A stretch of DNA of 64,000 nucleotides from Leptolyngbya sp. PCC 6406 (lineage in GTDB: Bacteria; Cyanobacteriota; Cyanobacteriia; Phormidesmidales; Phormidesmidaceae): the NCBI RefSeq assembly GCF_000332095.2, contig NZ_KI913949.1:1539286-1603285 (forward strand). The letters run 5' to 3'. Shown in pieces: positions 8,399 to 62,169 of this stretch. Both the position numbers and the translations under genes were made by a program. Under the pieces are notes generated by a model. The model was not told the DNA's origin, made no database searches, and saw only the letters and a list, made by a program, of their open reading frames with translations. Every line of letters starts with the position of its first letter. The stretch's first letter is position 1.

Positions 8399-8542
8399 GC
8401 CCCAGCACCCTCCCGTTACCCGCCACCTTCTCCCACCCCTACCCCCGTTGCGACCTCCTCCTCCAGGGGTTCTATCTCCTTTGAGATTCCGAACCGACAA
8501 TATTCCCGCCGAACCCCCGTCGGAGGCAAAGGGGATTGTTAA
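8399..8542 (+). pseudogene. Displaced 3' part of the small gene split by the IS
   Basis: An open frame that continues codon 90 of the gene starting at 7215 when the IS and one TCA copy are removed. It begins APAPSRYPPPSPTPTP, then a basic tail, and stops at TAA 8540-8542. Pro/Ser/Thr-rich composition agrees with the upstream SSSPNS linker. Confidence 0.45.
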
Positions 8543-8614
8543 GGCGATCTCCGGAACAGAAAATCCCAGCTTGACCTTATCAATTGCAGGCTTTGTGGGG
8601 TGGGCAGTACTAGT

Positions 8615-8740
8615 TAAGTAGGTTGGCCTAAGAATTTCGTTAGAATTTCGTTTTATGTTACGGAACATGAAATCTGGGCTGCTTGGTATCCAGCGCTTCT
8701 GGCTCTGATTCACCTCGGATTAACGAGGTCAACCTACTTA
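8615..8740. repeat. MITE-like element with 15-bp inverted ends
   Basis: TAAGTAGGTTGGCCT at 8615-8629 and AGGTCAACCTACTTA at 8726-8740 are inverted copies with one mismatch, enclosing about 95 bp of noncoding, AT-richer DNA with an internal near-duplication of TTAGAATTTCGTT (8639-8653). No coding capacity. It lies between the IS-split gene and the YdeI-like gene. Confidence 0.55.
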
Positions 8741-8786
8741 TCTTGCAACGCAGACACCATCCCGTCCCGAATCATCACAAAAATCT

Positions 8787-9368
8787 CTATGTCAACGGAT
8801 TTTTGTTTTGGGCTGCTGAATTTACAACTTTTTCAATTCTCTTCAACCTTGTCTCTGAACGTTTTGAACTATCAATCCAAAAGAGAACGTTTTTCTTTAA
8901 TGAATTACTGAATGCCTCAAAGTTCTGGCTAGCTGTTTCATTTTTTTCTAAGGCTTGCTTCAAATCTGCTGGAATGATGAGTGCCTCAATCGCATCTAAC
9001 GCAGTCCAAGAGCCATCTTGTTTAGCCGTGTTAATCTTTTCAAGACCTGCTCCAGTCATTAAACCTTGTTCAATGAGTTCTTCAATATATTGCTTATTTA
9101 ATTTTGACCATACACTTTTCAATTTTCGGGGTGTAAAGATCTGCCGATAACGCTGTTCGTCTAATGATTGAACCTTGCTGTCAATCCAACCAAAGCATAA
9201 AGCTTCTTTGACTGCTTCACTATATTTAATACTTGGCTGACTACTGTTAACTTTGTAATAAATTAACCATATACCAAGCGTAGTACGATGATGTTTTTCT
9301 AGCCATTCCCTCCATTCTTTGCGATTGTTAGCATAAATTGCTTCTAACTGATCATCAAATTTTGGCAT
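8787..9368 (-). CDS. YdeI/OmpD-associated family protein
   Basis: 193 residues from ATG 9368 (MPKFDDQLEAIYANNRKEW); the frame extends 17 codons further but into the adjoining repeat. The family core is clear: EWREWLEKHH, GIWLIYYK, EALCFGWIDSKV, RYRQIFTPRK and WSKLNKQ. The C-terminal part matches the DUF1905/YdhG-like tail (IPADLKQALEKNE). The function of the family is unknown; members are small cytoplasmic proteins often encoded in accessory regions. The gene is clearly AT-richer than its neighbours and is bracketed by MITE-like repeats, which suggests horizontal acquisition. Confidence 0.85.
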   Translation of the reverse strand: MPKFDDQLEAIYANNRKEWREWLEKHHRTTLGIWLIYYKVNSSQPSIKYSEAVKEALCFGWIDSKVQSLDEQRYRQIFTPRKLKSVWSKLNKQYIEELIEQGLMTGAGLEKINTAKQDGSWTALDAIEALIIPADLKQALEKNETASQNFEAFSNSLKKNVLFWIDSSKRSETRLKRIEKVVNSAAQNKNPLT

Positions 9369-9404
9369 TGGAGTCAGATGGATTATTTTTTGAATGGGAC
9401 ACTC

Positions 9405-9510
9405 TATAGCGGTTCTCACTCAGGTTAAGTACAGGCAAGGGGCTTAAGCCCCTTGTTCGCCGAAGTGTCGTTAAGTTGAGGTGTACCTCATACATTAGGG
9501 AACCGCTATA
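9405..9510. repeat. MITE-like element with TATAGCGGTT ends
   Basis: TATAGCGGTT (9405-9414) and AACCGCTATA (9501-9510) form 10-bp perfect inverted ends (12 of 13 if extended). Inside is a 20-bp perfect palindrome, CAAGGGGCTTAAGCCCCTTG, at 9436-9455. No coding capacity. A related layout occurs at 29085-29186. Confidence 0.6.
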
Positions 9511-9541
9511 CAGCATTTGCAAAAGGCATGGGAGACATCTG

Positions 9542-11368
9542 CTAATCACTCTTGTGGCTCAGTAGCCAATAGGTCTGAATGTGCCCTTTGCCCTTGATCT
9601 CGATGGGGCCTCGGGGTTCAAAGTTGTAGCGTTGTTCTAGGCGTTGATAAACTGCCTCCGTTACTTGAATTCGATCGCTTTCTCCCTGGGATTCCATACG
9701 GTTGGCCACATTGACCGTGTCTCCCCAGAGGTCATAGGTAAACTTGCGGGTGCCAATTACCCCAGCAATGACGGGGCCGGTATGAATGCCCACTCGCAGT
9801 CGAATGGGCTGGCCATCAATTTGGAAGGGGTCCATGGCCTCTCGCATGGCTAAGGCCATATCCGCGATCGCGGATATGGCATCGATTTGAGGCTTGGGCA
9901 ATCCCCCCGCCACCATGTAGGCATCCCCAATAGTTTTGATTTTCTCTAGACGATAGTAATCTGCCAGTTGATCGAAGGTCGAGAAAATGTCATTGAGCAG
10001 GGCAACCATGGACTTAGGATCGATGCGGCTGGAGAGACTGGTGAAGCTAACAATATCAGCAAAAAGAACTGTCACATTGTCGTAGTAGTCAGCAATGTTT
10101 TTTTGGCCTCGCTTCAGGCGCTGGGCGATGAGTTGGGGCAACACATTCAGCAGTAGGCGCTCAGAGGTCTGGCGCTCCTGGCGTAGGGCTGCCTCGGTTT
10201 GCTTGCGTTGGGTAATATTCCAGACGCTGCCTTCGTAGTAGAGGAGTTTGCCCTGGGGATCGCGGACAGGGCGAATGCTCTCGGAGATCCATATCGTGGA
10301 CCCATTTTTGCGGTACACCTCAGATTCAAAATCCGAAAGAGTGTCATAGCGCTTTAGATAGGCCATCAACTCATGCCAGCGATGGGACTCAACATAGAGT
10401 TGCCGACGGGCGTCAGTGAGGTTTTCCTTTAAATCTGCGGTGGAGTCATATCCCAGTATCCTCACCAAAGCGGGATTGACCTGGAGATAGCGACCCTCGG
10501 CGGTAATTTGAAAGATACCCTGGGCTGCATGTTCAAAAATGCCGCGATATTTGGCCTCAGCTTGCGCTAGGTCACGGGTGCGCTGTTCCACGCGCAGTTC
10601 TAGCTCTTGGGCCTGCTGCCGCAGTTTATCCTCAGAGTCTTGCAAGAGGAGTTCGGCCTGTTTGCGATCGCTGATGTCGTAGAGGGTGGTTAACAGGATC
10701 TGTTGTCCATTCAAAACCAAAGGATGGATGGAAGCTGAGACCCAAAGGTTACATCCCTGATGATTACGAAGTTGCACTTCGTAGTCCCGCACGTAGCCCG
10801 AAGTCTGGAGACGTTGCTGTAATTGTTCGTCATCTTTTGGGTCGGGCAAAAACTCGCCAAGGCGGCGACCCACGAGACTCTCTTCCTCTGGCATGAGGCG
10901 CTGTATCGAAATGGAGTTGGCATAGGTGATGATGCCATCGGGAGCTTGGGACAGGATCATCAAAATCGGGGTAGATTCTGCGATCGCACGAAACAGCGCC
11001 TCACTCTGGCGCATGGTTTCCACGGCCTGCGTGTAGAGCTGATATTCCACGGTGTCACCATGCTGAGCAGTAGCCTCCAGCATGATTTCCAGATCCGCCT
11101 TGTCCTGGGAAACCTTCTCAAAGATCTCTTGCAGTACGGCTTGAACCTGTTTCCGCTCCGCCACCTCTGCTTGTAACTGTTGGTTGGTCTGGTAAAGTTG
11201 CGCCTCAATCAAATCGCCGTGCTCAGTAGTAGTCAGCAGTGCAATCTGAAGATCCTCATTCTCTTGCCGTAGGCGCGCCAATTCTTGCTGAAGTTCAGCC
11301 GTCTGATCTCGCGCTGACTCCGATCCTTGCCCTGGTAATGCTTGGTCCTGCCCTGCTGCTGTCATCAC
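9542..11368 (-). CDS. PAS-domain class III adenylate cyclase
   Basis: 608 residues, soluble. There is an N-terminal coiled coil (about 20-125), in which a GD-x-x-E-x-QLY motif occurs twice, then PAS domain 1 (about 125-240), a short coiled coil, PAS 2 with PAC (about 272-395) and a class III cyclase domain (about 405-605). Metal-binding Asp438 (VLFADIVSFT) and Asp482 (KTIGDAYM) are present. Purine-specifying Lys478 and Asp546 (YDLWGD) are of the adenylate type, and transition-state Asn553 and Arg557 (NVANR) are intact. It should make cAMP from ATP in response to a signal sensed by the PAS domains; the ligand is unknown. It is similar in plan to cyanobacterial Cya proteins. A Crp-family regulator is present at 41235 but is not adjacent. 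Confidence 0.92.
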   Translation of the reverse strand: MMTAAGQDQALPGQGSESARDQTAELQQELARLRQENEDLQIALLTTTEHGDLIEAQLYQTNQQLQAEVAERKQVQAVLQEIFEKVSQDKADLEIMLEATAQHGDTVEYQLYTQAVETMRQSEALFRAIAESTPILMILSQAPDGIITYANSISIQRLMPEEESLVGRRLGEFLPDPKDDEQLQQRLQTSGYVRDYEVQLRNHQGCNLWVSASIHPLVLNGQQILLTTLYDISDRKQAELLLQDSEDKLRQQAQELELRVEQRTRDLAQAEAKYRGIFEHAAQGIFQITAEGRYLQVNPALVRILGYDSTADLKENLTDARRQLYVESHRWHELMAYLKRYDTLSDFESEVYRKNGSTIWISESIRPVRDPQGKLLYYEGSVWNITQRKQTEAALRQERQTSERLLLNVLPQLIAQRLKRGQKNIADYYDNVTVLFADIVSFTSLSSRIDPKSMVALLNDIFSTFDQLADYYRLEKIKTIGDAYMVAGGLPKPQIDAISAIADMALAMREAMDPFQIDGQPIRLRVGIHTGPVIAGVIGTRKFTYDLWGDTVNVANRMESQGESDRIQVTEAVYQRLEQRYNFEPRGPIEIKGKGHIQTYWLLSHKSD

Positions 11369-47943: not shown

Positions 47944-50341
47944 GTTGGGTAGGAGAGAAAGACATCGCTGCCCCTCTCCCCCCTAAGAACCGGACTTGAT
48001 AGTTTCCTCTCATCCGGATCAAGCCCTCTGTGAGCCAACAGGTGTTTTGGCCTGACCATGTACCTGCCGATGACAGGCCTGATGGAGCAATTGTAGGTTC
48101 TCGTCCTGACTCAAACCACCCGCCTGGACAGGAGAGCGGTCATGAGCATGGACTTCCTCGCCATTGACGAGCCCTTCACCACAGACAGGGCACCGCCATT
48201 GCTGACTTTGGGCCAGTCGATAATACGTGGAGCCTCGACTCCAGTATCGCTTGCCATGCCGCTGTTGACGGTGTTGCCAGTAGTCGTGCAGGTCAGGGTC
48301 ATCCGGAGAGGCGGTGCCTTTGACTTTGACATGCCGCTCAATCGTTAAGGAATCGAGCCGAAACAATGAGATGGACTTGTCGCCGTCGGTTGGCGTGTGA
48401 ACCGTGGCCGCAAACACCCAGTGCCGATAGCCAAAGGCTTTGAAATAGCGCTTAGCCACCCAGGTTTTGGATTTGTTGGGATGCCGTCTGAGGCACCACC
48501 GCCAAATCGCCCGCCAGAGTTGGTCATCCATGGCATTGAAGACCCGCTTACTCACGACATGACGGTAGTAGCGTCCCCAGCCCTGCAAAATCGGGTTGAG
48601 GAAACGGATGACCAGGGCCGGTGAGGTGTGCAGGTGCGCTTTGAGCCAGGCTCGTAGCGCTTGCAGTTTGGCATTCACCTTCGCCGCTTGGGGCGTAATC
48701 AAGCACTTCCCTTGTCGGGACTGGATATGGAAGCCCAAGAAATCAAAGCCTTCGTCTTTGTGGACGATGCGCGTTTTCTCAGGATGGAGCATCAGCCCCC
48801 GCTGCTGGAGCCAGTCTTGCAGGATAGGGACTACGGCTTCAAGCGCTTCGCGACTGCGGGCCGTAACGAGGAAGTCGTCGGCATAGCGGATGAACCCGTA
48901 GCGGGTAACCTGGCGGTATCCGACTTGCCCCTCCCGACCCGCTTGGGTACGAGGAAAGGCTTTGCGGTCCCGGAACTGACTCAAGAGCTCGCCCATGCCA
49001 TCGAGGGCAATATTGGCGAGGAGCGGGGAGATGACGCCGCCTTGCGGGGTGCCCGCATCGGTCGTGTGAAACACCTCCGCTTCCATATAGCCTGCCTTCA
49101 ACCATTGCCGAATCCATTCGCGACCGGGACAGAGCCCAATGGCATCGAGAATGAAGTCATGGCTGATGGTATCAAACGCACTTTTGATATCGGCATCAAG
49201 AATCCAACTGTCATGGCCTTGGTTGAGGCGAATCCACGTTTGGTCGATAGCGTCCTGGGCACTGCGTCCGGGCCGAAACCCATAGCTATGTGCCTCAAAG
49301 CGAGCTTCCCAACTGGGTTCCAGGGCATTCTTGACCAGGCTTTGGGCCACTCGGTCAAGGACGCAAGGGATCCCCAGGGGACGCTGTTTACCCTTAGCCT
49401 TGGGAATATATATCCGTCGGGCTGGACGCACCTGACCGGGCGCATAGGCCGACATCTGATGGACCAGGTGCACCCGCTGGGCGGGTGTTAGGGCGGTATA
49501 ACCATCAATGCCCGCCGTCTTGCGTCCGGCATTCAGTTGGGTGACTCGTCGCACCGACCACAACAGGTTGGCATGACTCCGTAGCATCAGTTTCATCAGG
49601 CTTCTCACCCGATTCCACTGCTGCTGTTGGCTCGCCCGGTAAATTCGCCGTCTCAGGTTCCGCAACCGCTTGTTGACCGACTTCCAGACGATGCTGTGCC
49701 AGTCCACTTGCGCTGTCGTAGTTCCGATGTCGTTGCCGACTCTATCTTTCACTCACGATTAGGTTCCTTTACAGTGGTTTATCGGTGAAGACCCACTGGA
49801 AGTCTGCGACCTTTCAGTCCGGGGCAAAGCTTGAACCCCTATCTGCGGCATTACCCACAGCCTTCGCTTTCTCCAGTTTCCTTTACCCGCTAGGGAGTTC
49901 TGCCGCCTTTACAGACTGGCTTACTGAGGCTATCGACCTGGCCTCAGACCCTATCGGGCTTACCGTGTTCCCTACCTGTGACCTGCGACTGTGGGGGGTT
50001 CCATCTATATGCCGGTGGGAGTTCGGTTCCTGCACGGTCAACTCGTAGACTTTGACCGCCCACCCACTTACCTTTTGGTCAGAGTGTTTCAGCCTCTTTC
50101 ACTCGGCTACTGTGACGACACTTACGATGATTCACTCGCGTTAACCCTTCACAGTCTTCGTCTTGCACTCTCTCCAGATGGAGGCTGCCAGAGGTCGTGC
50201 TTGCGTGCCTTGCATTCCATTGCGTTCATTACTTACTAGCAACGTAGGCAGGGTCATTGACCCCGTTACGGGACGATGGGGAGCAAGAATTCCCCAGAGA
50301 GGACGGCCTCTCAGTCAGCAGGTACAGCTTTCACGTCGCAC
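47944..50341 (-). mobile_element. Group II intron with reverse-transcriptase ORF, about 2.4 kb
   Basis: The 5' end is GTGCGAC (reverse complement of 50335-50341), the group II consensus. The 3' end is placed at 47944 (..CCTACCCAAC), which keeps the host Uma2 frame. A domain V hairpin lies at 47987-48020 on the minus strand: GATCCGGATGAGAG, GAAA, CTATCAAGTCCGGTTC, followed by a domain VI stem with GGGAGAG/CTCTCC. The usual AGC triad of domain V reads ATC here. The reverse transcriptase fills domain IV and its stop TGA touches domain V. Confidence 0.85.
48019..49752 (-). CDS. ltrA: Group II intron-encoded reverse transcriptase/maturase with HNH endonuclease
   Basis: 577 residues, intact. Reverse transcriptase blocks: RRIYIPKAKGKQRPLGIP, HSYGFRPGRSAQDA, DADIKSAFDTISH, GTPQGGVISPLLANI and the catalytic RYADDFLV. 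A maturase (X) domain (about 395-445) and a C-terminal HNH module CPVCGEGLVNGEEVHAHD..LLHQACHRQVH complete it. QGGVISP marks it as group II type, not a diversity-generating retroelement enzyme. It splices and mobilises the intron that contains it. The plus strand is also open here (48661-49491), which is only a shadow. Confidence 0.95.
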   Translation of the reverse strand: MKDRVGNDIGTTTAQVDWHSIVWKSVNKRLRNLRRRIYRASQQQQWNRVRSLMKLMLRSHANLLWSVRRVTQLNAGRKTAGIDGYTALTPAQRVHLVHQMSAYAPGQVRPARRIYIPKAKGKQRPLGIPCVLDRVAQSLVKNALEPSWEARFEAHSYGFRPGRSAQDAIDQTWIRLNQGHDSWILDADIKSAFDTISHDFILDAIGLCPGREWIRQWLKAGYMEAEVFHTTDAGTPQGGVISPLLANIALDGMGELLSQFRDRKAFPRTQAGREGQVGYRQVTRYGFIRYADDFLVTARSREALEAVVPILQDWLQQRGLMLHPEKTRIVHKDEGFDFLGFHIQSRQGKCLITPQAAKVNAKLQALRAWLKAHLHTSPALVIRFLNPILQGWGRYYRHVVSKRVFNAMDDQLWRAIWRWCLRRHPNKSKTWVAKRYFKAFGYRHWVFAATVHTPTDGDKSISLFRLDSLTIERHVKVKGTASPDDPDLHDYWQHRQQRHGKRYWSRGSTYYRLAQSQQWRCPVCGEGLVNGEEVHAHDRSPVQAGGLSQDENLQLLHQACHRQVHGQAKTPVGSQRA

Positions 50342-51320: not shown

Positions 51321-52642
51321 CTTAACGGGTGACAAGGGCACTCAACGTCATACGGTACAGGGTTTTGAGATAATGGAGGGGACAAAAAAAAGGGAGCCTC
51401 AGTACAGCTCCCCCAACCAAATATGTTCCCTACATTCTACCAAACTACCCTTCTCACCCATCTCAGTGAAAAGCAGTACTTGACCTTCCAGTTACTGTTG
51501 TTATTGCTACAAGCGCATCGCCAAGTCAAACTCTCCGTCTTAGCCAGCGTCTTTCCTCAGCCCATTCAGTATCAAAGTCGCAAACGGAACTTACAACGCT
51601 TTTTAGCCTTACCCCAACTCACGCTCAAGGTGCTGTGGTTTCCGCTGCTCAAATATTGGATCCGCCAAGTGGAAACGGGACGGGGCTTGAACCGTGACCA
51701 ACGCCGTCGTCTGAGAACGCTCAAACACCATAAACACGGCTATTGGATTCTGGCAATGGACCGCACGGAATGGAAAGGGCGAAATATCTTCATGGTCAGC
51801 GTGGTGTGGGGGACTCATGCTTTACCCGTCTATTGGGAGCGTTTAGGGCGGGCGGGTACGAGTGACCTGAAAACGCAACGGCGACTGCTGAAAGCGGCCC
51901 TGTCCTTGTTTAAGTCCTACCCGGTTCTACTGCTGGGTGACCGGGAGTTCCATAGCCCTAAACTGGCGGACTGGTTGGAGCAGCGCGGGGTGTCCTTTGC
52001 ACTCCGACAGAAAAAGGACTTCCATTTCAAGACCGATACCGATACCGACTATCAAGTCCTCAAAAACGCTGGCTTCAAACCGGGCCAGTCTCGATTTTAT
52101 GAGGGAGTTTTGTGCAACAAGGGCGATGGTATGGGCCCGTTTAATTTAGCGGTGTATTGGAAGCGCTCCTATCGCCAGAAGGGGCCGAAGGAACCGTGGT
52201 ATATCCTGACTAATCTGCCCACCTTGAAGCAAGCCTTAGCAGTCTATCGATGTCGCTGGGGCATTGAACAGCTCTTCAAAGACTTTAAGACTGGGGGCTA
52301 TAACTTGGAGGATACCAAGGTCAATGACACCCGATTCTTAGCCTTAGTTTTACTGATCGCTCTGGCTTACAGTTTGGCGACTCTCCACGGCCAGTGGATG
52401 CAGGAGGCCAAGCTAGCTCAGTATGCCGGACGTCTCCAAGAGCACCAAGATAAGGCTCCACGGCACAGTGACTTTAGCTTCAGTCTCTATGGTCAACGAT
52501 GGCTCTATGCCATGGATTTATGGGCCGATTGGGCGCTCAAGCTGGTAGCCCTCAAACCCCATAAACACCGCTATTTTCAGCGAGGTTTTCACGCCCTATC
52601 CCTTATCCAGCAAGCTCTCTAGGGGGGTTGTCACCCTGTAAG
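51321..52642 (+). mobile_element. IS4-family insertion sequence, 1322 bp, with 9-bp target duplication
   Basis: The ends are CTTAACGGGTGACAA at 51321 and, reverse complemented at 52642, CTTACAGGGTGACAA (13 of 15). It is flanked by GCCAAGAAC at 51312-51320 and 52643-52651, a perfect 9-bp duplication. One intact transposase. All features point to a recent insertion. Confidence 0.93.
51423..52622 (+). CDS. IS4-family transposase
   Basis: 399 residues. DDE residues in ILAMDRTEWKG (Asp), VLLLGDREFHS (Asp) and the YREK box YRCRWGIEQLFKDFKTGGY, which carries Tyr, Arg, Glu and Lys at the family spacing. N-terminal helical DNA-binding region with YQSRKRNLQRFLALP. Intact and in frame with the element ends 100 nt upstream and 20 nt downstream. 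Confidence 0.95.
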   Translation: MFPTFYQTTLLTHLSEKQYLTFQLLLLLLQAHRQVKLSVLASVFPQPIQYQSRKRNLQRFLALPQLTLKVLWFPLLKYWIRQVETGRGLNRDQRRRLRTLKHHKHGYWILAMDRTEWKGRNIFMVSVVWGTHALPVYWERLGRAGTSDLKTQRRLLKAALSLFKSYPVLLLGDREFHSPKLADWLEQRGVSFALRQKKDFHFKTDTDTDYQVLKNAGFKPGQSRFYEGVLCNKGDGMGPFNLAVYWKRSYRQKGPKEPWYILTNLPTLKQALAVYRCRWGIEQLFKDFKTGGYNLEDTKVNDTRFLALVLLIALAYSLATLHGQWMQEAKLAQYAGRLQEHQDKAPRHSDFSFSLYGQRWLYAMDLWADWALKLVALKPHKHRYFQRGFHALSLIQQAL

Positions 52643-53245: not shown

Positions 53246-53537
53246 ATGGCTAGCCTCGTTTTCAAGCCTGAAACCAAGACCGCCCGTTACTTCACCGAGC
53301 AATTAAGTGATGAAGTGAGTCTAGACATGGTATGGTTTCGGTGCCCGGAGGGGAGTTTGTCATGGGCTTCGCCGATCAAGACTCCCAGGGATATAACGAT
53401 GAACGTCCCCAGCATCCGGTGACTGTGCCCAGCTTTTTTATGGGGCGCTACCCTGTCACAGTCGAAACCTGGCCACTGGGTACACGATTAACCCGCAGAT
53501 CCCTAAGTGCGCCCCGTGTGCAGGCTCATAGGAGTTA
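53246..53537 (+). pseudogene. FGE-sulfatase-type N-terminal fragment, frameshifted
   Basis: ATG 53246 begins MASLVFKPETKTARYFTEQL, then SDEVSLDM. A tandem duplication ATGGT-ATGGT at 53327-53336 shifts the frame. The second frame gives MVSVPGGEFVMGFADQDSQG, then YNDERPQHPVTVPSFFMG, RYPVTVETW, the start of the FGE domain. Homology ends at about 53472, where the domain should continue for another 200 residues. So the gene is both frameshifted and truncated. It is convergent with the conflict operon and ends at its last gene. Confidence 0.75.
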
Positions 53538-56156
53538 ATGTCCAGATTGCCAAGGCCATCTGGGCTTGGCAACTGGGGTTGTGGTCAATCTGGTAGCAGT
53601 ATCAAAATCAGCTTTGGCCAACCTTTGCTGGCCTAGGCTGTCATAGGCGTAGGCCCGCTGACGATAGAATTCCGGATTTTTGCTGTCAAGGGCAATGGCT
53701 TGAGTCAGGGCGTCGATCGCTGCTGGATAATCTCTTAAATGAAAATGGGCACGGCCACTATCAAAATAGGCGTCGGCCTGATAGGTCTCTTGATTAGAGG
53801 CGTACTGAATCGCATATTGATAGTCCGCGATCGCGGCTGCAAAGTAGCGCCGCTCAAAATGGGCCTTACCCCGACGGTAGTAGGCAGGGCCATACTGGGG
53901 ATGCAGATCGATTGCCTGGGTCAAGTCCGAGATCGCGACTTCCCTATCCCCTTGCTCAATCTTGAGAAGCCCCCGCTCGTAGTACATCACATGGTTATCA
54001 GCATCGCGCCTAATGGCAGAATTGAGGTCAGCAATAGCTCCCTCGTAGTATCCCAACTGTTTCTTCACCAAGGCCCGCTGATAATAGGCAAAAATAGACT
54101 CCGATTCAATCTCTAGAATTACATCCAGCAACTCTAGGGAGGCCTGAAATTGCTTCCGATCGTATAGTCTTTGCGCTTTTGTAATCTGTTCATAAATTTT
54201 CCTGGATATAAGGTGATAAGCCAGTCTGATGAACCATAAATCAGAAACTTTAGCCCTCAAAGGTCGATCATCTTGCATCTTAAAATACCATTTCCACCAG
54301 CAAGCTAGGAGAGTCGTACGCTCTAGGCTCTGAATGACTTCCGCTTCTATGCGTTGGATATCTATCTCGTTCAGATTCCAGGAGTTAGCAATTTCCTCTA
54401 GAAACTTGCGGTTAGCAGCATTGATCGAACCATCTTGTAAGACTTGCGCTCGCAGAATGTTTTCATACCGTTGATATTGGTCAACGTTTTGTTGAGTTGA
54501 AAACAAGATTTCTTCTTCGATTGAGATTATTTCGACTTCACTCAATCCCAGTTGCTTAGCTTTGATTTTCAGGTATATTTGACCGGCTGAACCCCTATTG
54601 TCGTGATACTCGCTGGCTAGTGCACGGTAGACTTGTATCGGGTCAATAGTTTTGACCTTGGATAGTCTAATATCCGTGCCGAGACCCTTGAGTGGATTAA
54701 TCGGAATTATCTGTGGAGTTATGGACCTATCCATGCCTCTAATAACAGGATTGGCCTGTAATTTTTGACTGATATACTCATGAATTTCCGCGAAGGAAAT
54801 GTACCCGTCTTGGTCGATATCTGCTTCGCCCGTGTTAATGCCTCTCACCAGATAGTGGGTGTATAATGACAGTCCTGATGGCTCCTCCTCGGGCTCCAAA
54901 GAAACATGTGCAAGGGAGTATTCGATAGGACTACAGGATGTTAGGACGATATGGCCCTTTGCTTCTAATTTTTGCTGAAGATCTAAAGACATATCTGCTT
55001 TGAAGAAGGATTGATTAATGGCACCGCTGAAGCAACAGTCCAGGATAATAACTAATCCGCCGATTCTGATGTGTTGAAGAATCTCATAAATAAAGTCGAA
55101 AGATACTGCCGTAGAGCGCATCCAGCGGTTATTGGAATCCTTGCGCGTGCTGGAGGTCGCTAGGTAAATTTTATTGGTTAGGTCAGTCTTGAGGCCATAT
55201 CCAGAAAAGTACAAGACACCTAAATCAGCTTTTCTGATGTTGAGCAAAAAAGACTCGATTTCTGACTGCATGGTTTGCAGGTCAGGATTGGATAGGAGCT
55301 TAACATCGTCAAATCCCCCTAACTCTGGATCCTCTAGGACTTGCTTCAGTGCCTGGATGTCATTTAAGGCTGAAGGTAACGAAGCAAAGTCCGGAGTGTA
55401 TTCACTGACACCAATTAAGAGTGCAACCTTTAGCTGTCGTGCCACGGGCTCCGGTAGCCTCAGGGTTTGCCCCGGCAGCACCTCATAGCTTTGCGCGAGA
55501 TGCTCAGGGGCAATATCCCCTTCCCCCACCACCACCGCCCGCACCAGAGCCGCATAGTCTAACAGTGCTGGATAGTCCGCGAGTTGCGGCGCTAGCTCCA
55601 GGGCGATCTCCGCCAGTCGGGCCAGTTCCGCCTTCCCCACCAAGTTGTCCCCTAGACGTTCTACCGTGGTGGTGCCGATTTGCAACTGGGCCGCCATCTG
55701 ACTCACCGCCTCCCGGCGCTGCTCCTCATTCAAATAGACCATCGCCGCCCACTGTTGGGCTTCCAATTCCTTTTCATTAGCCTGGGGGTTGGTTTCTGCC
55801 AGGTACCTGACATAGCTAATCAGCAGCTTGGCCACCTGTTCTATCCGTTCCTGGCCATACTGGCGCTTCAATTCATCAAATAGATAAGCCCGAACATCCG
55901 TATCTAGGGCATAGAGTTCATAGCCCACGGGCTGACACAGATCTGAGAGTAGCAAATCCACCTCTGCCACCCACGGCACCCCCTGGTCCCGCAGAAACTC
56001 ATTGCGAAGGTAGTTGACCAGTTCCGGCGTGAGTACTAGGGGCAGAGCCGCATGGCAGGCGAGCGCTCGGTAAGCAGGCTGGAACCGCCGCACAAAACGC
56101 CGTACCGTTTGTGCCGCCTGAGCTTGGCGTTGTTCTAAGGACAGCGAATCAGTCAT
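53535..56156 (-). CDS. Caspase-fold / EF-hand / TPR protein (last gene of the conflict operon)
   Basis: 873 residues from ATG 56156, which overlaps the VWA stop as ATGA. Residues 1-190 are a helical region (RALACHAALPLVLTPELVNY, DLLLSDLCQPVGYELYALD) shared with cyanobacterial FGE and WD40 proteins near MoxR-VWA genes. The caspase-like domain (about 240-480) has VALLIGVSEYTP, VLYFSGYGLKTD, where Tyr320 replaces the catalytic His, and VIILDCCFSGA with the cysteine kept. An EF-hand-type loop DIDQDGYISFAE lies at 446-457. A linker (500-640) and about six TPRs (650-865) follow. Probably a pseudo-caspase sensor or scaffold, or an effector using another His. Confidence 0.88.
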   Translation of the reverse strand: MTDSLSLEQRQAQAAQTVRRFVRRFQPAYRALACHAALPLVLTPELVNYLRNEFLRDQGVPWVAEVDLLLSDLCQPVGYELYALDTDVRAYLFDELKRQYGQERIEQVAKLLISYVRYLAETNPQANEKELEAQQWAAMVYLNEEQRREAVSQMAAQLQIGTTTVERLGDNLVGKAELARLAEIALELAPQLADYPALLDYAALVRAVVVGEGDIAPEHLAQSYEVLPGQTLRLPEPVARQLKVALLIGVSEYTPDFASLPSALNDIQALKQVLEDPELGGFDDVKLLSNPDLQTMQSEIESFLLNIRKADLGVLYFSGYGLKTDLTNKIYLATSSTRKDSNNRWMRSTAVSFDFIYEILQHIRIGGLVIILDCCFSGAINQSFFKADMSLDLQQKLEAKGHIVLTSCSPIEYSLAHVSLEPEEEPSGLSLYTHYLVRGINTGEADIDQDGYISFAEIHEYISQKLQANPVIRGMDRSITPQIIPINPLKGLGTDIRLSKVKTIDPIQVYRALASEYHDNRGSAGQIYLKIKAKQLGLSEVEIISIEEEILFSTQQNVDQYQRYENILRAQVLQDGSINAANRKFLEEIANSWNLNEIDIQRIEAEVIQSLERTTLLACWWKWYFKMQDDRPLRAKVSDLWFIRLAYHLISRKIYEQITKAQRLYDRKQFQASLELLDVILEIESESIFAYYQRALVKKQLGYYEGAIADLNSAIRRDADNHVMYYERGLLKIEQGDREVAISDLTQAIDLHPQYGPAYYRRGKAHFERRYFAAAIADYQYAIQYASNQETYQADAYFDSGRAHFHLRDYPAAIDALTQAIALDSKNPEFYRQRAYAYDSLGQQRLAKADFDTATRLTTTPVAKPRWPWQSGH

Positions 56157-57238
56157 AACCACGGAGAATGCAAGTGCTGGAGGGGTTGACCCCGGACAAT
56201 GTCGATCCCATTGCTGAGGCCATCCTCATCCATCTGAAACATCGGCACAATATTGGCAATGATATCGGCAGAAGTACCTTCCCACCGCTCCGTAGGCATA
56301 GGATTTAACCAGGCCATCAGGTTGGTCACCTGCCGCAGTTTCAACAGAAAGCCCGTCGTAGACTGAATGCGAGAGAGTTGCCGATAGCCCCGCGCTGCCC
56401 CCCCATCACTGACGATGAGCACGCTGGTGTCGCTATCGATCGCTGCCAGCACCTTGCCCAGGGCGATGGGCTGGGTTAAAAAAGCATCTTGATACAGAAA
56501 GTCCCCTGGCTGGTTGTGGAAGTAGTAGGGGACGAACTGCCCCTCTGACAAAGTGCCCTCGCTACTGGCGGTCTCCACAAGGTCACGGGTGAAGCGATGG
56601 AAGGGCATCATGGAACCATTTTGGTCAATGAATAGCACTAGCCGCGCCTGGTTTTGCTCCCGACGCCGCAACACCGGAGCCAGGTAGAAGCCATTGCGGG
56701 CCGCTGATTGCACCGTTGCCTCCACATCTAAGATTGTGGCGACTCCCATGGCTACAGGCCGCCGCAAATATCGCCAGGTATAGCTCATGGACCGCCGCGA
56801 CACGGGCCAATAGGCGGCTAAATCGGTGGGGTCTTCTACCTCCGCTGGGGTGAATGGTGCCCGCACTGGCTGCACCGCCACCTCCGTTGCCGTCTGCACC
56901 ACTGTTGGATCGGGTTGCGGGCGGGACAGCGGCACTGATTCCGGTGATAGCGGGGGTACGGGGGGGGGGTGTCTTGGGATTTCCCCCGGAAGTGGGAGGG
57001 CTGGATCTGGAGCTAATATCGCCAACACCTCCTCCCAGATAGGGTCAAATTGACTGCGGTGGGATCTGGAACTGCACCAGAGCAGCTTCAGTGCCGATTT
57101 GAGGGCATCCGGTTGCGTCACCCGTTGCCCCCTGACCAGTGCCAAGGCGGACAGGTACTCTTGACCGCCCAAATCAAAGCCACTGCGGCGAAACCGCAGC
57201 AGGGCTTGGGTCACCAGTGCTGACAAATCTAAACTCAT
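56153..57238 (-). CDS. VWA-type (MIDAS) protein of the conflict operon
   Basis: 361 residues. An N-terminal helical domain (ALVTQALLRFRRSGFDLGGQEY) is followed by a Pro-rich linker (about 85-130). The von Willebrand A fold shows RLVLFIDQNGSMMPFHRF (a D-x-N-G-S MIDAS variant) and SVLIVSDGGAARGYR (distal Asp). C-terminal TNLMAWLNPMPTERWEGTSA is typical of VWA proteins that partner MoxR ATPases. Start and stop overlap both neighbours by 4 nt (ATGA), so it is translationally coupled to the MoxR gene upstream and the caspase-fold gene downstream. Confidence 0.88.
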   Translation of the reverse strand: MSLDLSALVTQALLRFRRSGFDLGGQEYLSALALVRGQRVTQPDALKSALKLLWCSSRSHRSQFDPIWEEVLAILAPDPALPLPGEIPRHPPPVPPLSPESVPLSRPQPDPTVVQTATEVAVQPVRAPFTPAEVEDPTDLAAYWPVSRRSMSYTWRYLRRPVAMGVATILDVEATVQSAARNGFYLAPVLRRREQNQARLVLFIDQNGSMMPFHRFTRDLVETASSEGTLSEGQFVPYYFHNQPGDFLYQDAFLTQPIALGKVLAAIDSDTSVLIVSDGGAARGYRQLSRIQSTTGFLLKLRQVTNLMAWLNPMPTERWEGTSADIIANIVPMFQMDEDGLSNGIDIVRGQPLQHLHSPWL

Positions 57239-58167
57239 GTCACCGCAGGTCGTGCCGCATTGCGCCAGTCAGCTCTGAGCTTAAAGAGCAACTCGCGGTA
57301 GGGCACCGGGTTGGCATCGGCCAGAGTCTGAGGGGAGAAAGGTTGCGACCCAAACTGATTCAAAGCCCGGAGCCAATCTAGAAATTCGCTGGTACCGGGC
57401 TTCTTGAACAGGCCATCTCGGTTGCGAATCTGCAAAAATCGCTCCGTGGCCACCTCCGCCAACTCTTCCGAGAGATCCCCCAGCACCGCCTGGTGGGCAG
57501 CGGCAATGTCTTGTAACCGCTCTGTCGGGAACTCCACAAAGTAGTACAAACAGCGCCGCAGAAAGGGGGCGGGTAGATTGCCCTTTTCCTTATTGCTGGT
57601 AATGATAACAATGGGCGGGTGCTTGGCCCGTTTCACTTCCCCGGTTTCGCGAATGGTGAAGGACCAGGGTTCATCCAGCACCGCCAGCAAGTCATTGGGA
57701 AAGTCCAGATCCGCTTTGTCAATTTCATCAATCAGCACCACCGCTGGACAATTCTCACACTCAAAGGCTTTGCCTAGGGCTTTCAATTCCAGATAGTTAT
57801 TGGGATTGCTGGGGTCAATGGAGCGCTGGGACTGGTCCGTTTGGCCGTCTAGCCCTTTCACCAAGTTGGCATCATGGAGCCGCAGGATGGTGTCAAATTC
57901 ATAGAGCCCTTCCTGGTATTTGGTGGTGGAGCGCACATCCCAGCGATAGAAGGGCAATCCCAGTTCATGGGCCACCGCCACCGCCAGTCGAGTTTTGCCA
58001 CAGCCCGCTTCCCCCTCTAGCAGCAGGGGCCGCTGGAGAAAAATGGCCAGATTAACCGCCGTAATCAATTCCTCCGAGGCCAGGTAGGGCTCGGGCCGCT
58101 GGGGCGACTCGGAATGGGCATCGGCGGGCCGATGGGCGGGGTTGCCGGTAAACGTGAGGGGGGCCAT
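57235..58167 (-). CDS. MoxR-type AAA+ ATPase of the conflict operon
   Basis: 310 residues. Walker A is EGEAGCGKTRLAVAVA, Walker B VVLIDEIDKADLDFPNDLL, sensor 1 IVIITSNKEKGNLP, and the Arg finger PAPFLRRCLYYF. The N-terminal YLASEELITAVNLAIFLQRPLLL is the usual MoxR entry (cited as YLASEELITAVNLAIF). All ATPase motifs are intact, unlike the preceding protein. It presumably loads or remodels the VWA protein whose gene overlaps its stop. It starts 2 nt after the previous stop. Confidence 0.93.
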   Translation of the reverse strand: MAPLTFTGNPAHRPADAHSESPQRPEPYLASEELITAVNLAIFLQRPLLLEGEAGCGKTRLAVAVAHELGLPFYRWDVRSTTKYQEGLYEFDTILRLHDANLVKGLDGQTDQSQRSIDPSNPNNYLELKALGKAFECENCPAVVLIDEIDKADLDFPNDLLAVLDEPWSFTIRETGEVKRAKHPPIVIITSNKEKGNLPAPFLRRCLYYFVEFPTERLQDIAAAHQAVLGDLSEELAEVATERFLQIRNRDGLFKKPGTSEFLDWLRALNQFGSQPFSPQTLADANPVPYRELLFKLRADWRNAARPAVT

Positions 58168-58169
58168 AC

Positions 58170-59195
58170 TTACTCCGTCTGGAATGCCAGTAACTCATCA
58201 AAATACTCTTGCAGGGCGGTGCGGGTTAAGGCAGGGTCGCCATTGCTCTCTGTATAAATCAGCTCAGCCCATTGGTTCCGTTGGTGTTTAGGAAGCTGAA
58301 AGTGATCCTGGAGCCAGAGGCGAATGTCTTGCTCTGTCCAGCGTTCTAGGGGCAATTCTAAGATGCTGCGACTGTCAAACTCGTCTACGGTGCAAAAGCA
58401 AGCAGATTCGCGGCAGTCGGGGGTTAACTCACGGTTAGCCACAATCACAAAAATCACCCGAGCGTACCAATCGTCCAGAACGGACGAGAGTTGCTGCACC
58501 AGCGATCGCCAAAAGGTTTCCAGCAGCCATTCCATAAACGCCTTTTGGTTACCGCTGCCCACCGCATCCCAGTTGGTGAGGTGAATGACCACGGTGGAAC
58601 TCTCCCGCAGGGAGGCACAGAGGGTTTGGGCAACAGTGGCCATGTCTGCCTCTGGGTCGCCACTGGGTTCAACCCCCAGGTACTTACCCAACAGTTTCAA
58701 AAAGGTGCGATCGTCCGTGCCACCCACCGCAGGGGAGAAGGTGATTTTGTACCAGAGGGGCGTTGTCACCCCATTTCTGAGCACGTCATCCAGTGCCCGC
58801 AGCAACAAGTCTCCAGCCATGGCGCGACTCTGCTGCATGAGCATCAGCGCTCCCCCTCCATCGAGTTGAAGGGTATCGAGAACCTGTTCGATTACTTTTC
58901 GTGCTTTGCGAAAGTCAATTCTGGGCAGGGCCTCGTCAAAATCCAGGGTCTGGCGGTTGAGGTCTTGGCCCTGTTTCTCCAGAGCTTTGAGTTGCAGTTC
59001 TTTGGCTTTGTACTTCCCTAGGAGGGTATCTCTCTGAGCTTCTAGTTTTACCTTCGCCACGGGATCGTTTGTGGTGCGGGCTGTCTCTGCACAGACACTA
59101 TGCTCAAGCATCAGGGCGGCCATGTCGCGCTCTAATTCCTTTTTCTGGAGTGCGACACTTGTCAAATCAGGTTGCGGGTTGCGATCGTTCACCAT
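58170..59195 (-). CDS. Inactive-STAND-like protein with N-terminal helical adaptor
   Basis: 341 residues from ATG 59195; a TTG at 59207 is possible. Residues 1-75 are a coiled coil with HSVCAETARTTNDPVAKVKL, similar to the end of the CHAT protein. Residues 85-335 look like a STAND/NACHT-type NTPase by segment order: ALMLMQQSRAMAGDLLLRALDD where the P-loop should be (no GK[ST]), TVVIHLTNWDAVGSG as Walker-B-like, VIFVIVANRE, and a winged-helix-like tail with LPLERWTEQDIRLWLQDHF. It fits the 'iSTAND' type proposed for conflict systems, a signalling platform that does not hydrolyse ATP. The assignment rests on pattern, not alignment. Confidence 0.72.
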   Translation of the reverse strand: MVNDRNPQPDLTSVALQKKELERDMAALMLEHSVCAETARTTNDPVAKVKLEAQRDTLLGKYKAKELQLKALEKQGQDLNRQTLDFDEALPRIDFRKARKVIEQVLDTLQLDGGGALMLMQQSRAMAGDLLLRALDDVLRNGVTTPLWYKITFSPAVGGTDDRTFLKLLGKYLGVEPSGDPEADMATVAQTLCASLRESSTVVIHLTNWDAVGSGNQKAFMEWLLETFWRSLVQQLSSVLDDWYARVIFVIVANRELTPDCRESACFCTVDEFDSRSILELPLERWTEQDIRLWLQDHFQLPKHQRNQWAELIYTESNGDPALTRTALQEYFDELLAFQTE

Positions 59196-59207
59196 CTCGC
59201 CTGTCAA

Positions 59208-60725
59208 CTACGCCCCACTTCCAGATTGCAGGGCTTCAATGCGCTCACCAATTCTAGAGATATCCGCCAATATTTTTTGTCCTTTGGTTTGCAGCTTAAT
59301 TTTGCTATCGGGATCTAGGGTGGAGCGGGCCGCTTCTTGGCAGGCTTGATATTCCGCTTGCAGTTGTACCAGTTGCGCTTGGAGGTCTTGCAGCTCTAGC
59401 TGTGCGGCTAGGCCCAGTGGTTGCGGGCGAGATCGCGCTGCTTCTGGTTTGGGTGGTGCAGAGGGCTGGGGTTCCGGTTTCACAAACAGCTCGCCGTGGT
59501 GATTTTCCTGCCATCGCAGGTACAACACCGGACGGTACCACTGATTCCCCTCCGGATCCATCCAGGTGCGCCCCGCCTGCACCGCCGCCAGAGCCGACTG
59601 CCCCCGCCCCAACACCCGATAAAACTGCTCCGCAAAGTCCTGCGCCGCCCGCACCTGCACGCTGTACTGCATCGCCACCACCGCCGGAATCTGGGCATCG
59701 ATCAACTGCTGGGCAGTGCCATTAAACACCGACTTCCCCGTCACCGCCATCCCCGACTGACAGGCACTCAACACCACCAGGGCAATGCCCTGATCCGCCA
59801 CCAAAGCCGCCAACCTGCGCGCACTGACAAACTCCGCCTTGCCCTGCTCATCCTCAAAGGCCAGAAACCCCTGGGCCTCCGGTAACGGCGCACCACAACG
59901 CTGACAGGTTTCCGCCTTCGTGCTGGCTTGCAAATGGCCACACACCTGACAGCGCTTGCCAAAGATGCCGTGGCCATCAAAGTGAACCACTTGCGGTGGG
60001 GTGGCCGATTCCGTCAGGTACGCACTCAGCCCGCGCCAGGTGGGGGTAGGCAACTTTTCGAGGGAAACGGATTCAGCCTTAGCAATGCCAGTTTGGATCG
60101 CCTGGGGCTCCCCATCGGACAAGTGGCCCACATCCCTAGCCCGTGGGGAAACCAACAAGACGCGCAGGCGATCGCCCAAGGGCTGCCGGGGAGGCACCGC
60201 ATCATAGGCAATGTAGCGAGACAGTTGCACCCGTCGGTTTAGGAGAAATCGAGTCCCGTCGTGGATCAGTTCCCAAGGGTAATCCGCAAGGCGAGATCGC
60301 TTTGCCGCATCCGCCGCAAACTTCAGCCTGAGATGCAAAGTCGCGCTGGCATTTTCGGCTTGGCGCAGGGCAGATTGAAACGCTTGCCCGACGGGCTGAT
60401 TGGGCGGCAATAGCGCCTGAAAGAGGGCTTGCCCAATCCTGGCCAAATAGTCCGGTGCAAAACTGGGATGTCCTGCGGACAAAATCCCAGCCCGCTTCAT
60501 CCAATCTTGCTCACCGAGCTGGGGAAAGTGTTCAGATTTGAACCCCCCTGAACTTTCCAACCCCTTAATCACCGTCGTCCGCCAATCCTGTTCACCGTCC
60601 CAAAAGGGCAAGGCCGATTCAGACTCCGCATCACTGCCCAAGGTCGATGCAGTGACGATCGCCTTGAATCGCAGCGAATCCAGCGGCGTCAAATACAGCT
60701 CAAACAAATGGGGAGAACTGGCCAT
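59208..60725 (-). CDS. CHAT-domain protease with zinc ribbon and C-terminal adaptor
   Basis: 505 residues from ATG 60725. An N-terminal beta-sandwich-like region (HLFELYLTPLDSLRFKAIV) is followed by the CHAT domain: WELIHDGTRFLLNRR, catalytic His252 in VVHFDGHGIFG and Cys322 in VVLSACQSGMAV, both present. Between them is an inserted zinc ribbon with CQVCG (259-262) and CQRCG (274-277). The C-terminal 70 residues are a coiled coil containing ACQEAARSTLDPDSKIKL, resembling the N-terminus of the next protein. It is the likely effector peptidase of the operon. Starts 4 nt after the trypco2-like gene stops. Confidence 0.92.
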   Translation of the reverse strand: MASSPHLFELYLTPLDSLRFKAIVTASTLGSDAESESALPFWDGEQDWRTTVIKGLESSGGFKSEHFPQLGEQDWMKRAGILSAGHPSFAPDYLARIGQALFQALLPPNQPVGQAFQSALRQAENASATLHLRLKFAADAAKRSRLADYPWELIHDGTRFLLNRRVQLSRYIAYDAVPPRQPLGDRLRVLLVSPRARDVGHLSDGEPQAIQTGIAKAESVSLEKLPTPTWRGLSAYLTESATPPQVVHFDGHGIFGKRCQVCGHLQASTKAETCQRCGAPLPEAQGFLAFEDEQGKAEFVSARRLAALVADQGIALVVLSACQSGMAVTGKSVFNGTAQQLIDAQIPAVVAMQYSVQVRAAQDFAEQFYRVLGRGQSALAAVQAGRTWMDPEGNQWYRPVLYLRWQENHHGELFVKPEPQPSAPPKPEAARSRPQPLGLAAQLELQDLQAQLVQLQAEYQACQEAARSTLDPDSKIKLQTKGQKILADISRIGERIEALQSGSGA

Positions 60726-60729
60726 CGGG

Positions 60730-61110
60730 CTAGAAGCGATCGGCTAGGTTGTCCTCTGCCGCCCCGTCTTTCGTCAGGGCCTCTAAGCTGCGCGCGATCG
60801 CAGGCATGACCTGCTCCCCGCGAACATCCTTAAACCACTCCACCAGTTGGGCCTTGTCAAACAGCGGTGACAAAGACACCTTCACCGTATGGGTTTTCTC
60901 GTGGCTGAGGGTTCCGCCCGCTTCCCCCCCACCAATCGCGACCACATCAATTTTGATTCCCGCGTTGCCTTCCCGCTTGGCGGTCACCTGTAATTCCAGT
61001 TCCACCGAGTCCACAAAAAAGATGGGTGGCTCACCCTCCTTGTCTGGGGGCGTCAGCAGCTCCTTTTTGACCTGGTTGATGAGTTCAGACAGCCCAATGG
61101 GTTGAGTCAT
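60730..61110 (-). CDS. Trypsin-co-occurring domain 2 (trypco2)-like protein
   Basis: 126 residues. The start IGLSELINQVKKELLTPPDK and the beta-rich PIFFVDSVELELQVTAKREGN, GIKIDVVAIGGGE and THTVKVSLSPLF pattern match the trypco2 family, which occurs beside trypsin-like or CHAT peptidases in bacterial conflict systems. A helical tail (QVMPAIARSLEAL) follows. It is the first gene of the six-gene operon. Its molecular role is unknown; the family is thought to associate with the peptidase effector. Confidence 0.85.
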   Translation of the reverse strand: MTQPIGLSELINQVKKELLTPPDKEGEPPIFFVDSVELELQVTAKREGNAGIKIDVVAIGGGEAGGTLSHEKTHTVKVSLSPLFDKAQLVEWFKDVRGEQVMPAIARSLEALTKDGAAEDNLADRF

Positions 61111-61296: not shown

Positions 61297-62169
61297 TTAC
61301 CCCGCCAGCCGTCCCCAGATCCGGGCTACTTCCGCCAGCAGGGTTTGAAAAGTTTCCCGGAAGGCCCGGTGTTCTGCTTGATTGAGGGCGAAATCGCGAT
61401 CAGCCCTTTCCCGGTCACGCTCTGCCTGCTCCTGGCTTGCCCGCAAGGCTTCCATAAAAGCTAGATGTTCTGCTTCATTGCGATCGCGATCGCGATCAGC
61501 CCTTTCCCGGTCACGCTCTGCCTGCTCCTGGCTTGCCCGCAAGGCTTCCATAAAAGCTAGATGTTCTGCTTCATTGCGATCGCGATCGCGATCAGCCCTT
61601 TCCCGGTCACGCTCTGCCTGCTCCTGGCTTGCCCGCAAGGCTTCCATAAAAGCTAGATGTTCTGCTTCATTGCGATCGCGATCGCGGTCAGCCTGTTCTC
61701 GGTCTGTCTGCAAGGATTCTAGAAAAGCCTGGTGCTCTGCTTCATTGAGGGCGCGATCGCGGTCAGCCTGTTCTCGGTCTGTCTGCAAGGATTCTAGAAA
61801 AGCCTGGTGCTCTGCTTCATTGAGGGCGCGATCGCGGTCAGCCCGTTCCCGATCGCGGTCAGCCCTTTGGCGATCCGCCCTAGCATCCGCCAGTAGGTTC
61901 TCAAACCGCTGGTTTGCTTCCTGCTGTTCCCGCCTGAATTCTGCTTGGCGCTGCCTGATCTCCCCCTGTTCTTCGGCCATAGTGGTGATCATCCCCACCA
62001 AGTCGGTCACACTAGCCCGTAGCTCCTGATTGCTCTGGGTAATTTGTTCACCCTGTTGCGTTACAGACTGCCTTAGCTCAGAAATCTGTCTGCCGTTTTC
62101 CCGCACCGCCAGTAGCGTCACTTCGGCCAAAGTTTCCAAACGGTCGAGCCGTGTCTCATTCGTCGCCAT
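61297..62169 (-). CDS. Tandem-repeat coiled-coil protein
   Basis: 290 residues, almost wholly helical and highly charged. N-terminal part RLDRLETLAEVTLLAVRENG and a Gln-rich coil resemble small cyanobacterial coiled-coil proteins. Residues 110-260 are tandem repeats: two 25-residue units (ALNEAEHQAFLESLQTDREQ) and three 32-residue units (RNEAEHLAFMEALRASQEQA). The Arg-Asp runs are encoded by overlapping HIP1 octamers. No enzymatic motif; a structural or scaffolding role is inferred. A strong terminator follows. Confidence 0.8.
   Translation of the reverse strand: MATNETRLDRLETLAEVTLLAVRENGRQISELRQSVTQQGEQITQSNQELRASVTDLVGMITTMAEEQGEIRQRQAEFRREQQEANQRFENLLADARADRQRADRDRERADRDRALNEAEHQAFLESLQTDREQADRDRALNEAEHQAFLESLQTDREQADRDRDRNEAEHLAFMEALRASQEQAERDRERADRDRDRNEAEHLAFMEALRASQEQAERDRERADRDRDRNEAEHLAFMEALRASQEQAERDRERADRDFALNQAEHRAFRETFQTLLAEVARIWGRLAG
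61401..61688. repeat. Tandem repeat, 3 x 96 bp, inside the coiled-coil gene
   Basis: Units begin at 61401, 61497 and 61593 with CAGCCCTTTCCCGGTCACGC and are almost identical; each unit joins the next through GCGATCGCGATCGCGATC, three overlapping HIP1 octamers. Two related 75-bp units follow at 61689-61838. Confidence 0.92.
61689..61838. repeat. Tandem repeat, 2 x 75 bp, inside the coiled-coil gene
   Basis: Units begin at 61689 and 61764 with CAGCCTGTTCTCGGTCTG; they are essentially identical, keep the reading frame (25 codons each) and end in a HIP1 octamer GCGATCGC. Confidence 0.9.

Follow-up and report, generated by a model that had tools for sequence, protein, structure and literature searches.

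The stretch of DNA analysed here (the window: 64,000 nt of Leptolyngbya sp. PCC 6406) carries on its minus strand, at 53535-61110, an operon of six tightly packed open reading frames (ORFs) in the order Trypco2, CHAT-EAD9, EAD9-iSTAND, MoxR, VWA, and vWA-L-caspase-TPR. Judged by its domains and motifs, the operon belongs to the iSTAND-type MoxR-vWA ternary systems, which Kaur et al. (2020; PMC7159879) had already predicted. We lean slightly towards reading it as an infection-triggered arrest or death switch, in which the CHAT peptidase would be the output and the C-terminal arm of the vWA-L protein the sensor. We also put forward, well short of even chances, a combined proposal: that Trypco2 and the zinc-ribbon CHAT form a mobile two-gene cyanobacterial "protease cartridge" that serves many unrelated sensor machines, joining them by fusion or by swappable EAD or Death-like tails, and that a foreign dead caspase may sit here as an integrated decoy in the sensor arm.

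Classification and recurrence of the core genes

In the second class of MoxR-vWA ternary systems, the third component is an inactive STAND (iSTAND) protein carrying EADs (Kaur et al., 2020; PMC7159879), and in a minority of these iSTAND systems the vWA-L domain plus effector forms a separate gene (Kaur et al., 2021; PMC8195603). The operon shares with the systems in both papers MoxR, a CoxE-like VWA protein, an EAD-iSTAND protein, a separate vWA-L with a variable module, and an EAD-coupled enzyme next door. It differs in having a zinc-ribbon CHAT with its own Trypco2 where those systems have a trypsin, and a His-less caspase plus TPRs as C-terminal module where they have FGS. The MoxR protein contains Walker A (GEAGCGKT), Walker B (LIDEID), and RR after FL, and it passes the Pfam cut-offs for AAA and AAA_5; both Walker motifs and sensor 1 are conserved in 9 aligned copies, as in MoxR-clade ATPases. 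The VWA protein has the MIDAS-like motifs DQNGS and SD, and DxNGS and SD are conserved in its relatives, in keeping with a CoxE-like vWA. The iSTAND domain (PF19995) scores 32.2 bits against a cut-off of 24, and its P-loop is degenerate, with no Walker A GK[ST] in 10 of 10 aligned copies, as expected of an inactive-STAND third component. The NCBIfam model SAV_2336_NTERM is divided between two proteins, its N-terminal part matching VWA and its C-terminal part the first 100 residues of the caspase protein, so the two genes look like a split vWA/vWA-L pair. From its position and the separate-gene layout, we infer that the N-terminal domain of the caspase protein is Kaur's vWA-L.

The EAD9-iSTAND protein is present in 9 of the 65 genomes of the order, the PCC 6406 genome counted. 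In the 8 others, MoxR and VWA-family matches directly adjoin it, and a vWA-L gene comes next where the contig allows; among relatives from the same family group are contigs that bear the names Nodosilinea, Oscillatoria, and Phormidium. Class-wide, the vWA-L profile matches 50 of 390 genomes, and most of the loci opened keep the MoxR-VWA-vWA-L order. All six genes, in the order Trypco2, CHAT-EAD9, EAD9-iSTAND, MoxR, VWA, vWA-L-FGE, are found in a member of the same genus (L120), in Oscillatoria sp. CS-180 (L121), and in Scytonema (L159), while the contig of L122 (Nodosilinea sp. LEGE 07298) starts at CHAT and that of L162 (Symploca) stops past VWA. This recurrence of gene order in other genomes is far beyond chance. 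An earlier note on this DNA had proposed a MoxR-VWA ternary conflict system and had named a lack of conserved co-occurrence of these families elsewhere as its refuter; co-occurrence is in fact conserved, and the system takes its place in the iSTAND class. PADLOC calls no system on the operon and returns just weak matches to CHAT, caspase, and ATPase models.

Gene layout and features

The ORF listing bears out the six minus-strand genes that the earlier note had placed at these coordinates. The note's five junctions, two ATGA overlaps and gaps of 2, 4, and 12 nt, are correct if ATG starts are used (Trypco2/CHAT, +4; CHAT/iSTAND, +12; iSTAND/MoxR, +2; MoxR/VWA and VWA/caspase, -4 each, both ATGA). 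For iSTAND, the ATG at 59195 gives the gap of 12 to CHAT, and a TTG at 59207 would give 0; for the caspase gene, the ATG at 56156 gives the ATGA overlap with VWA, whereas the ORF listing takes the GTG at 56162. The domain labels also agree with Pfam matches above cut-off (Trypco2, 4e-19; CHAT, 1e-24; iSTAND, 2e-7; AAA, 3e-9; VWA_CoxE, 8e-10; Peptidase_C14, 6e-16, plus TPRs). The exception is the EF label on the caspase-fold protein, where the EF-hand match reaches 15.4 bits against a cut-off of 25.4. We rejected a special calcium switch there on this score; because caspase homologues share the same loop, it is a feature of the caspase family. Three features go beyond that note: EAD9 on both CHAT and iSTAND, the N-terminal vWA-L of the caspase protein, and a His-to-Tyr change in the caspase. 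A promoter and terminator scan gave counts at shuffle level. The features, all on the minus strand, are as follows.

60730..61110, -, Trypco2, 126 aa, CHAT-associated subtype with C-terminal extension (PF19631, 4.3e-19; orthologues directly upstream of Zn-ribbon CHAT genes)
59208..60725, -, putative CHAT peptidase with C-terminal EAD9, 505 aa (PF12770, 1.3e-24; PF19962, 5.5e-7; AlphaFold2 and Foldseek)
59760..59972, -, predicted CHAT active-site span, His252 (59970-59972) to Cys322 (59760-59762), both invariant in a 49-row alignment
59883..59954, -, zinc-ribbon insert C259, C262, C274, C277, just past the catalytic His (49-sequence alignment)
59223..59411, -, CHAT EAD9, two-helix hairpin, aa 439-501 (PF19962; helices 439-468 and 472-501, block pLDDT mostly 93-96)
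58170..59207, -, EAD9-iSTAND third component, 345 aa from TTG, with ATG at 59195 likelier (PF19995, 1.7e-7; EAD9, 9.6e-4)
59013..59153, -, iSTAND EAD9, aa 19-65 (co-matches CHAT EAD9)
57235..58167, -, MoxR-type AAA+ ATPase (PF00004, 2.8e-9; NF047784 MadB-like, 1.7e-25, below cut-off)
56153..57238, -, VWA co-chaperone, CoxE/SAV_2336 type (PF05762, 7.7e-10; NF041121, 6.8e-15)
53535..56162, -, vWA-L - caspase fold - TPR protein, 875 aa from GTG (C-terminal part of SAV_2336_NTERM at aa 11-114; Peptidase_C14, 6e-16; TPRs)
55443..56162, -, vWA-L linker domain, aa 1-240, GC 58% (77-83% identity to the sister species' FGE-bearing protein)
54648..55445, -, pseudo-caspase domain, Tyr322 (55197-55199), FSGYG for FSGHG, Cys377 kept, GC 44% (homologue comparison; GC step; TAT codon)
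53583..54185, -, TPR array, aa 660-860 (PF13181/PF07719, 1e-15 to 1e-16)

EAD9 co-matching and the exchangeable enzyme arm

An EAD is shared between the third component and the neighbouring enzyme: the EAD9 of CHAT is above the Pfam cut-off, and that of iSTAND falls below it (19.3 against 25 bits). Across 11 systems, EAD9 tails match the iSTAND protein of their own operon and do not track the CHAT body (centred diagonal, permutation p=5e-5). This co-matching supports homotypic EAD9 pairing. The slot ahead of EAD9-iSTAND is filled interchangeably by enzymes: TIR-EAD9 in L020 and L022, a caspase-EAD9 that retains both His and Cys in L230 and L234, CHAT-TIR-EAD9 in L159, and Trypco2 plus CHAT-EAD9 here. 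The L159 gene (7986-10043, plus strand; Scytonema hyalinum) is a triple fusion within a complete iSTAND ternary operon. The iSTAND protein of L020 is 62% identical to that of PCC 6406, indicating that the enzyme was swapped on one core. Between the operon and L025, Trypco2 and CHAT share 86% and 77% identity, whereas iSTAND, MoxR, VWA, and vWA-L share 25%, 57%, 52%, and 49%; L025 and L023 are 67-77% identical for all modules. The high Trypco2-CHAT identity against the low core identity to L025 indicates that the pair moved between two diverged cores.

The zinc-ribbon CHAT and its Trypco2 partner

The CHAT protein is predicted to be an active peptidase by its His-Cys dyad and modelled fold. The AlphaFold2 model (pLDDT 87) shows EAD9 as a high-confidence two-helix hairpin, and Foldseek matches it to separase, SAVED-CHAT (E 3e-8), and Craspase CHAT (E 5e-6), at modest TM-scores of 0.3-0.4 and E-values of about 1e-6 to 1e-8. 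In the 49-row alignment, C259, C262, and C277 are invariant along with His252 and Cys322, and C274 is present in at least 90% of the rows; the insert begins 7 residues past the catalytic His. The earlier note had suggested that CHAT, caspase, and zinc ribbon together make a new variant. The caspase is indeed unusual in its slot, but the ribbon is the hallmark of a cyanobacterial CHAT subfamily with near-obligate Trypco2 and not peculiar to this operon. A scan across 84,980 species genomes gave 194 matches. Among the best 80 of these, the zinc-ribbon CHATs (within L120-L173) are about 38-82% identical and all cyanobacterial, and the next matches, at 28-33% and including Methanosarcina, Anaerolineae, and Acidobacteria, are without the ribbon; the scan used two short motifs, so the ribbon may occur elsewhere.

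Where upstream DNA is available, Trypco2 lies directly upstream of 42 of the 46 four-Cys CHATs and of 0 of the 22 ribbon-less ones; a 43rd case has three of the four Cys. Because the rows are related, this is a clade-wide association and not a count of independent events. Four zinc-ribbon CHATs (L147, L156, L160, and L170) show no upstream Trypco2, and a permissive search detected none nearby. Another Trypco2 subtype, about 100 aa, adjoins trypsin-like genes. We found no description of the ribbon-CHAT/Trypco2 pairing in the literature. The AlphaFold model of Trypco2 is weak (pLDDT 63), with no PDB match below E 0.8. In L064 (1-1752, minus strand), the gene after Trypco2 is of the GCS2 family (glutamate-cysteine ligase-like) and not a peptidase gene, and a Trypco2 gene stands at a Thiohalocapsa locus with a CHAT/TIR target of a diversity-generating retroelement (DGR; PMC10907252).

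The C-terminal partners of zinc-ribbon CHATs include VMAP, NB-ARC (some with APAF1_C), NACHT, CHASE2, caspase, TPR, FGE, bDLD3, EAD1, EAD2, and EAD9, and Pfam TCAD3 spans the N-terminus of some members. A quick CHAT tree has at least 14 partner changes, and its starred branches force at least 4 for STAND, at least 4 for VMAP, and at least 2 for iSTAND. Trypco2-CHAT is also fused to NB-ARC/APAF1_C, NACHT, or TPR in STAND proteins that have no vWA-L partner in the same protein, and the mobilizable Nostoc plasmid p057_M carries a copy with an annotated trypco2. In viral contigs, one distant partial CHAT alone was found, giving no sign of phage carriage. In L134 and L139 (Okeania, Trichodesmium), the zinc-ribbon CHAT is fused to bDLD3, with two copies in L139; of the bacterial Death-like domains, bDLD3 is the one nearest to the Death domains of animals. 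The source genome has 26 CHAT matches in all, one of them of the zinc-ribbon kind. A second CHAT gene lies at the other end of the window (838-1680, minus strand; open frame of about 1029 aa).

The pseudo-caspase arm of the vWA-L protein

The vWA-L domain is 77-83% identical to that of a sister species' protein with a different C-terminus, a vWA-L-FGE protein, and the similarity ends at aa 266. Over aa 240-614, the caspase domain is roughly 32-43% identical to members of a cyanobacterial caspase family. GC along the gene is 58% in vWA-L, 44% in the caspase, 42% just beyond it, and 50% in the TPRs. Most simply, a caspase-TPR cassette of foreign origin took the place of FGE in the source lineage, as the composition would suggest. 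Of the 19 comparable systems whose C-terminal domain is recognised, 17 have FGE in this arm, and only the operon and L232 have a caspase; in a further vWA-L system, G024 (L092), the gene itself has no recognised C-terminal domain.

The catalytic His of the caspase is replaced by Tyr in FSGYG (codon TAT), with the Cys kept, whereas the readable homologues have FSGHG in 23 of 23 (one ISGHG); the change is seen in one genome, at one TAT codon of the assembly. The domain thus lacks the His-Cys dyad of an active caspase or orthocaspase, and because the catalytic His is lost, the caspase partner is probably not a second executioner protease. Cyanobacterial pseudo-orthocaspases with Tyr for the catalytic His are known, mostly with YS or YN (Klemencic et al., 2019; PMC6426788). 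They share the Tyr with the operon's caspase, which differs in keeping Cys and in its fusion to vWA-L and TPRs inside a conflict operon. In L232 (Leptolyngbya sp. FACHB-321), the vWA-L-caspase retains His and Cys, so the slot can hold a possibly active peptidase, and we rejected the idea that an active caspase is never found in the sensor slot. The L232 ORF (1572-3800, minus strand) takes in the first half of a CHAT-like domain, with the second half in the next ORF, which is probably a frame break in a vWA-L-caspase-CHAT fusion.

Proposed mechanism and alternatives

The likeliest mechanism, we infer, is control of the CHAT peptidase by MoxR-vWA remodelling. MoxR, as an ATPase ring, would form with VWA and EAD9-iSTAND a resting complex that sets a threshold. 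The vWA-L protein would contact a product of the invader through its variable C-terminal arm (here the dead caspase plus TPRs; elsewhere FGE/C-type-lectin-like), and binding would trigger ATP-driven remodelling by MoxR-VWA. The iSTAND protein may then expose or cluster its EAD9 hairpins and recruit the EAD9 tail of CHAT; clustered CHAT, with Trypco2 as inhibitor, chaperone, or substrate adaptor, would become active and cleave cell proteins, leading to dormancy or death of the infected cell. By analogy, the system would serve anti-phage defence. CHAT is placed at the output because the same Trypco2-CHAT pair sits on APAF1-like STAND proteins without a vWA-L substrate, and the vWA-L arm is taken as sensor because FGE in relatives has a ligand-binding-type fold, DGR-diversified in some systems (PMC10907252), and its replacement here is catalytically broken. 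The same signalling direction was proposed for systems in which vWA-linked domains are DGR-diversified (Dore et al., 2024; PMC10907252).

Several points weigh against this switch. The iSTAND EAD9 on its own is sub-threshold in Pfam, no phage link was found in the 64-kb window, and Kaur et al. (2020; PMC7159879) propose the opposite order, in which iSTAND or VMAP senses and the peptidase releases the vWA-linked effector. Our preference stays slight because the L232 dyad is intact and the literature searched yielded no experiment on any MoxR-vWA ternary system. In the opposite order, EAD9-iSTAND would sense invader nucleic acid and CHAT would cut the vWA-L linker after MoxR-VWA remodelling, freeing the caspase-TPR part as executioner or dominant-negative decoy. 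Inactive STANDs are predicted to bind nucleic acid, EAD9 is listed among EADs that mostly recruit signalling components (PMC7159879, PMC8195603), and the L232 caspase keeps its dyad in this slot; but the caspase here has no catalytic His, and Trypco2-CHAT is elsewhere fused to STAND proteins with no vWA-L protein to cut, which leaves this order doubtful.

A refinement of the CHAT-output switch, which we regard as unlikely though worth stating, casts the pseudo-caspase as an integrated decoy, in which an inactive host-caspase copy would trap or report phage inhibitors of caspase or CHAT proteases. The loss of His with Cys and family resemblance kept, the active-looking relatives of the same caspase family that are common in the class, the low-GC cassette in the sensor slot, and the discussion of inactive enzymes as decoys by Kaur et al. 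all fit it. Its basis is one sequence and one TAT codon. We know of no phage caspase inhibitors, which also counts against it. Other MoxR-VWA pairs mature enzymes or complexes (reviewed in PMC7159879), so a housekeeping chaperone of the RavA-ViaA or CoxD-CoxE kind with accessory proteases and no conflict role could be imagined; we consider this very improbable given the patchy presence in the order, the swapping of modules, the EADs, Trypco2, and iSTAND, and the Trypco2-CHAT copy on a mobilizable plasmid.

Related systems and surroundings

VMAP-class ternary systems share the MoxR-vWA logic, and in some other cyanobacteria (L123, L124, L165, and L172) Trypco2-CHAT lies beside VMAP or is fused to it, but their MoxR belongs to a different subfamily. 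The operon was not assigned to them: VMAP-M and VMAP-C have no match in the six proteins, and VMAP occurs only in other Zn-CHAT loci. In Trypco2-trypsin pairs, Trypco2 likewise lies directly upstream of the peptidase gene in STAND or ternary loci; the subtype beside trypsin is about 100 aa against about 126 aa beside CHAT, and the operon has no trypsin. Craspase TPR-CHAT and SAVED-CHAT share the CHAT fold with a His-Cys dyad, there used as immune output, whereas the operon has a zinc-ribbon insert and an EAD9 tail and lacks CRISPR and SAVED modules; the missing CRISPR module was the reason for setting Craspase aside. Against an EACC1-caspase two-gene system, the caspase scores 138.2 bits (cut-off 140), but the 5' gene is VWA and not the EACC1 membrane gene. 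MADS was also rejected, with MadB and MadC equivalog scores of 89.8 against 475 and 16.3 against 600 bits.

Directly upstream of the operon on the same strand, 61297-62169 encodes a coiled coil that is charged and repetitive, with tandem repeats of 96 bp (3.5 copies, 95% match); it has no Pfam domain above cut-off and is not beside Trypco2 in the relatives opened. An IS4-family transposase (51423-52622; NF033591, 7e-95) lies about 0.9 kb downstream. The window's lowest GC (38-44%) is at 8401-9800, where a 210-aa ORF lies next to a transposase-like ORF (7519-8334) and the stretch has the look of a recent insertion, and 47944-48022 (minus strand) matches an Rfam group II intron (49.9 bits; gathering cut-off 40).

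Significance

Bacterial counterparts of apoptosome and inflammasome immunity have been predicted in the MoxR-vWA ternary systems, whose direction of signalling is disputed. One protease-plus-partner cassette common to ternary systems and APAF1-like STAND proteins argues that the cassette is the output, and the natural swap of FGE for a dead caspase between sister species argues that the vWA-L arm is the sensor.

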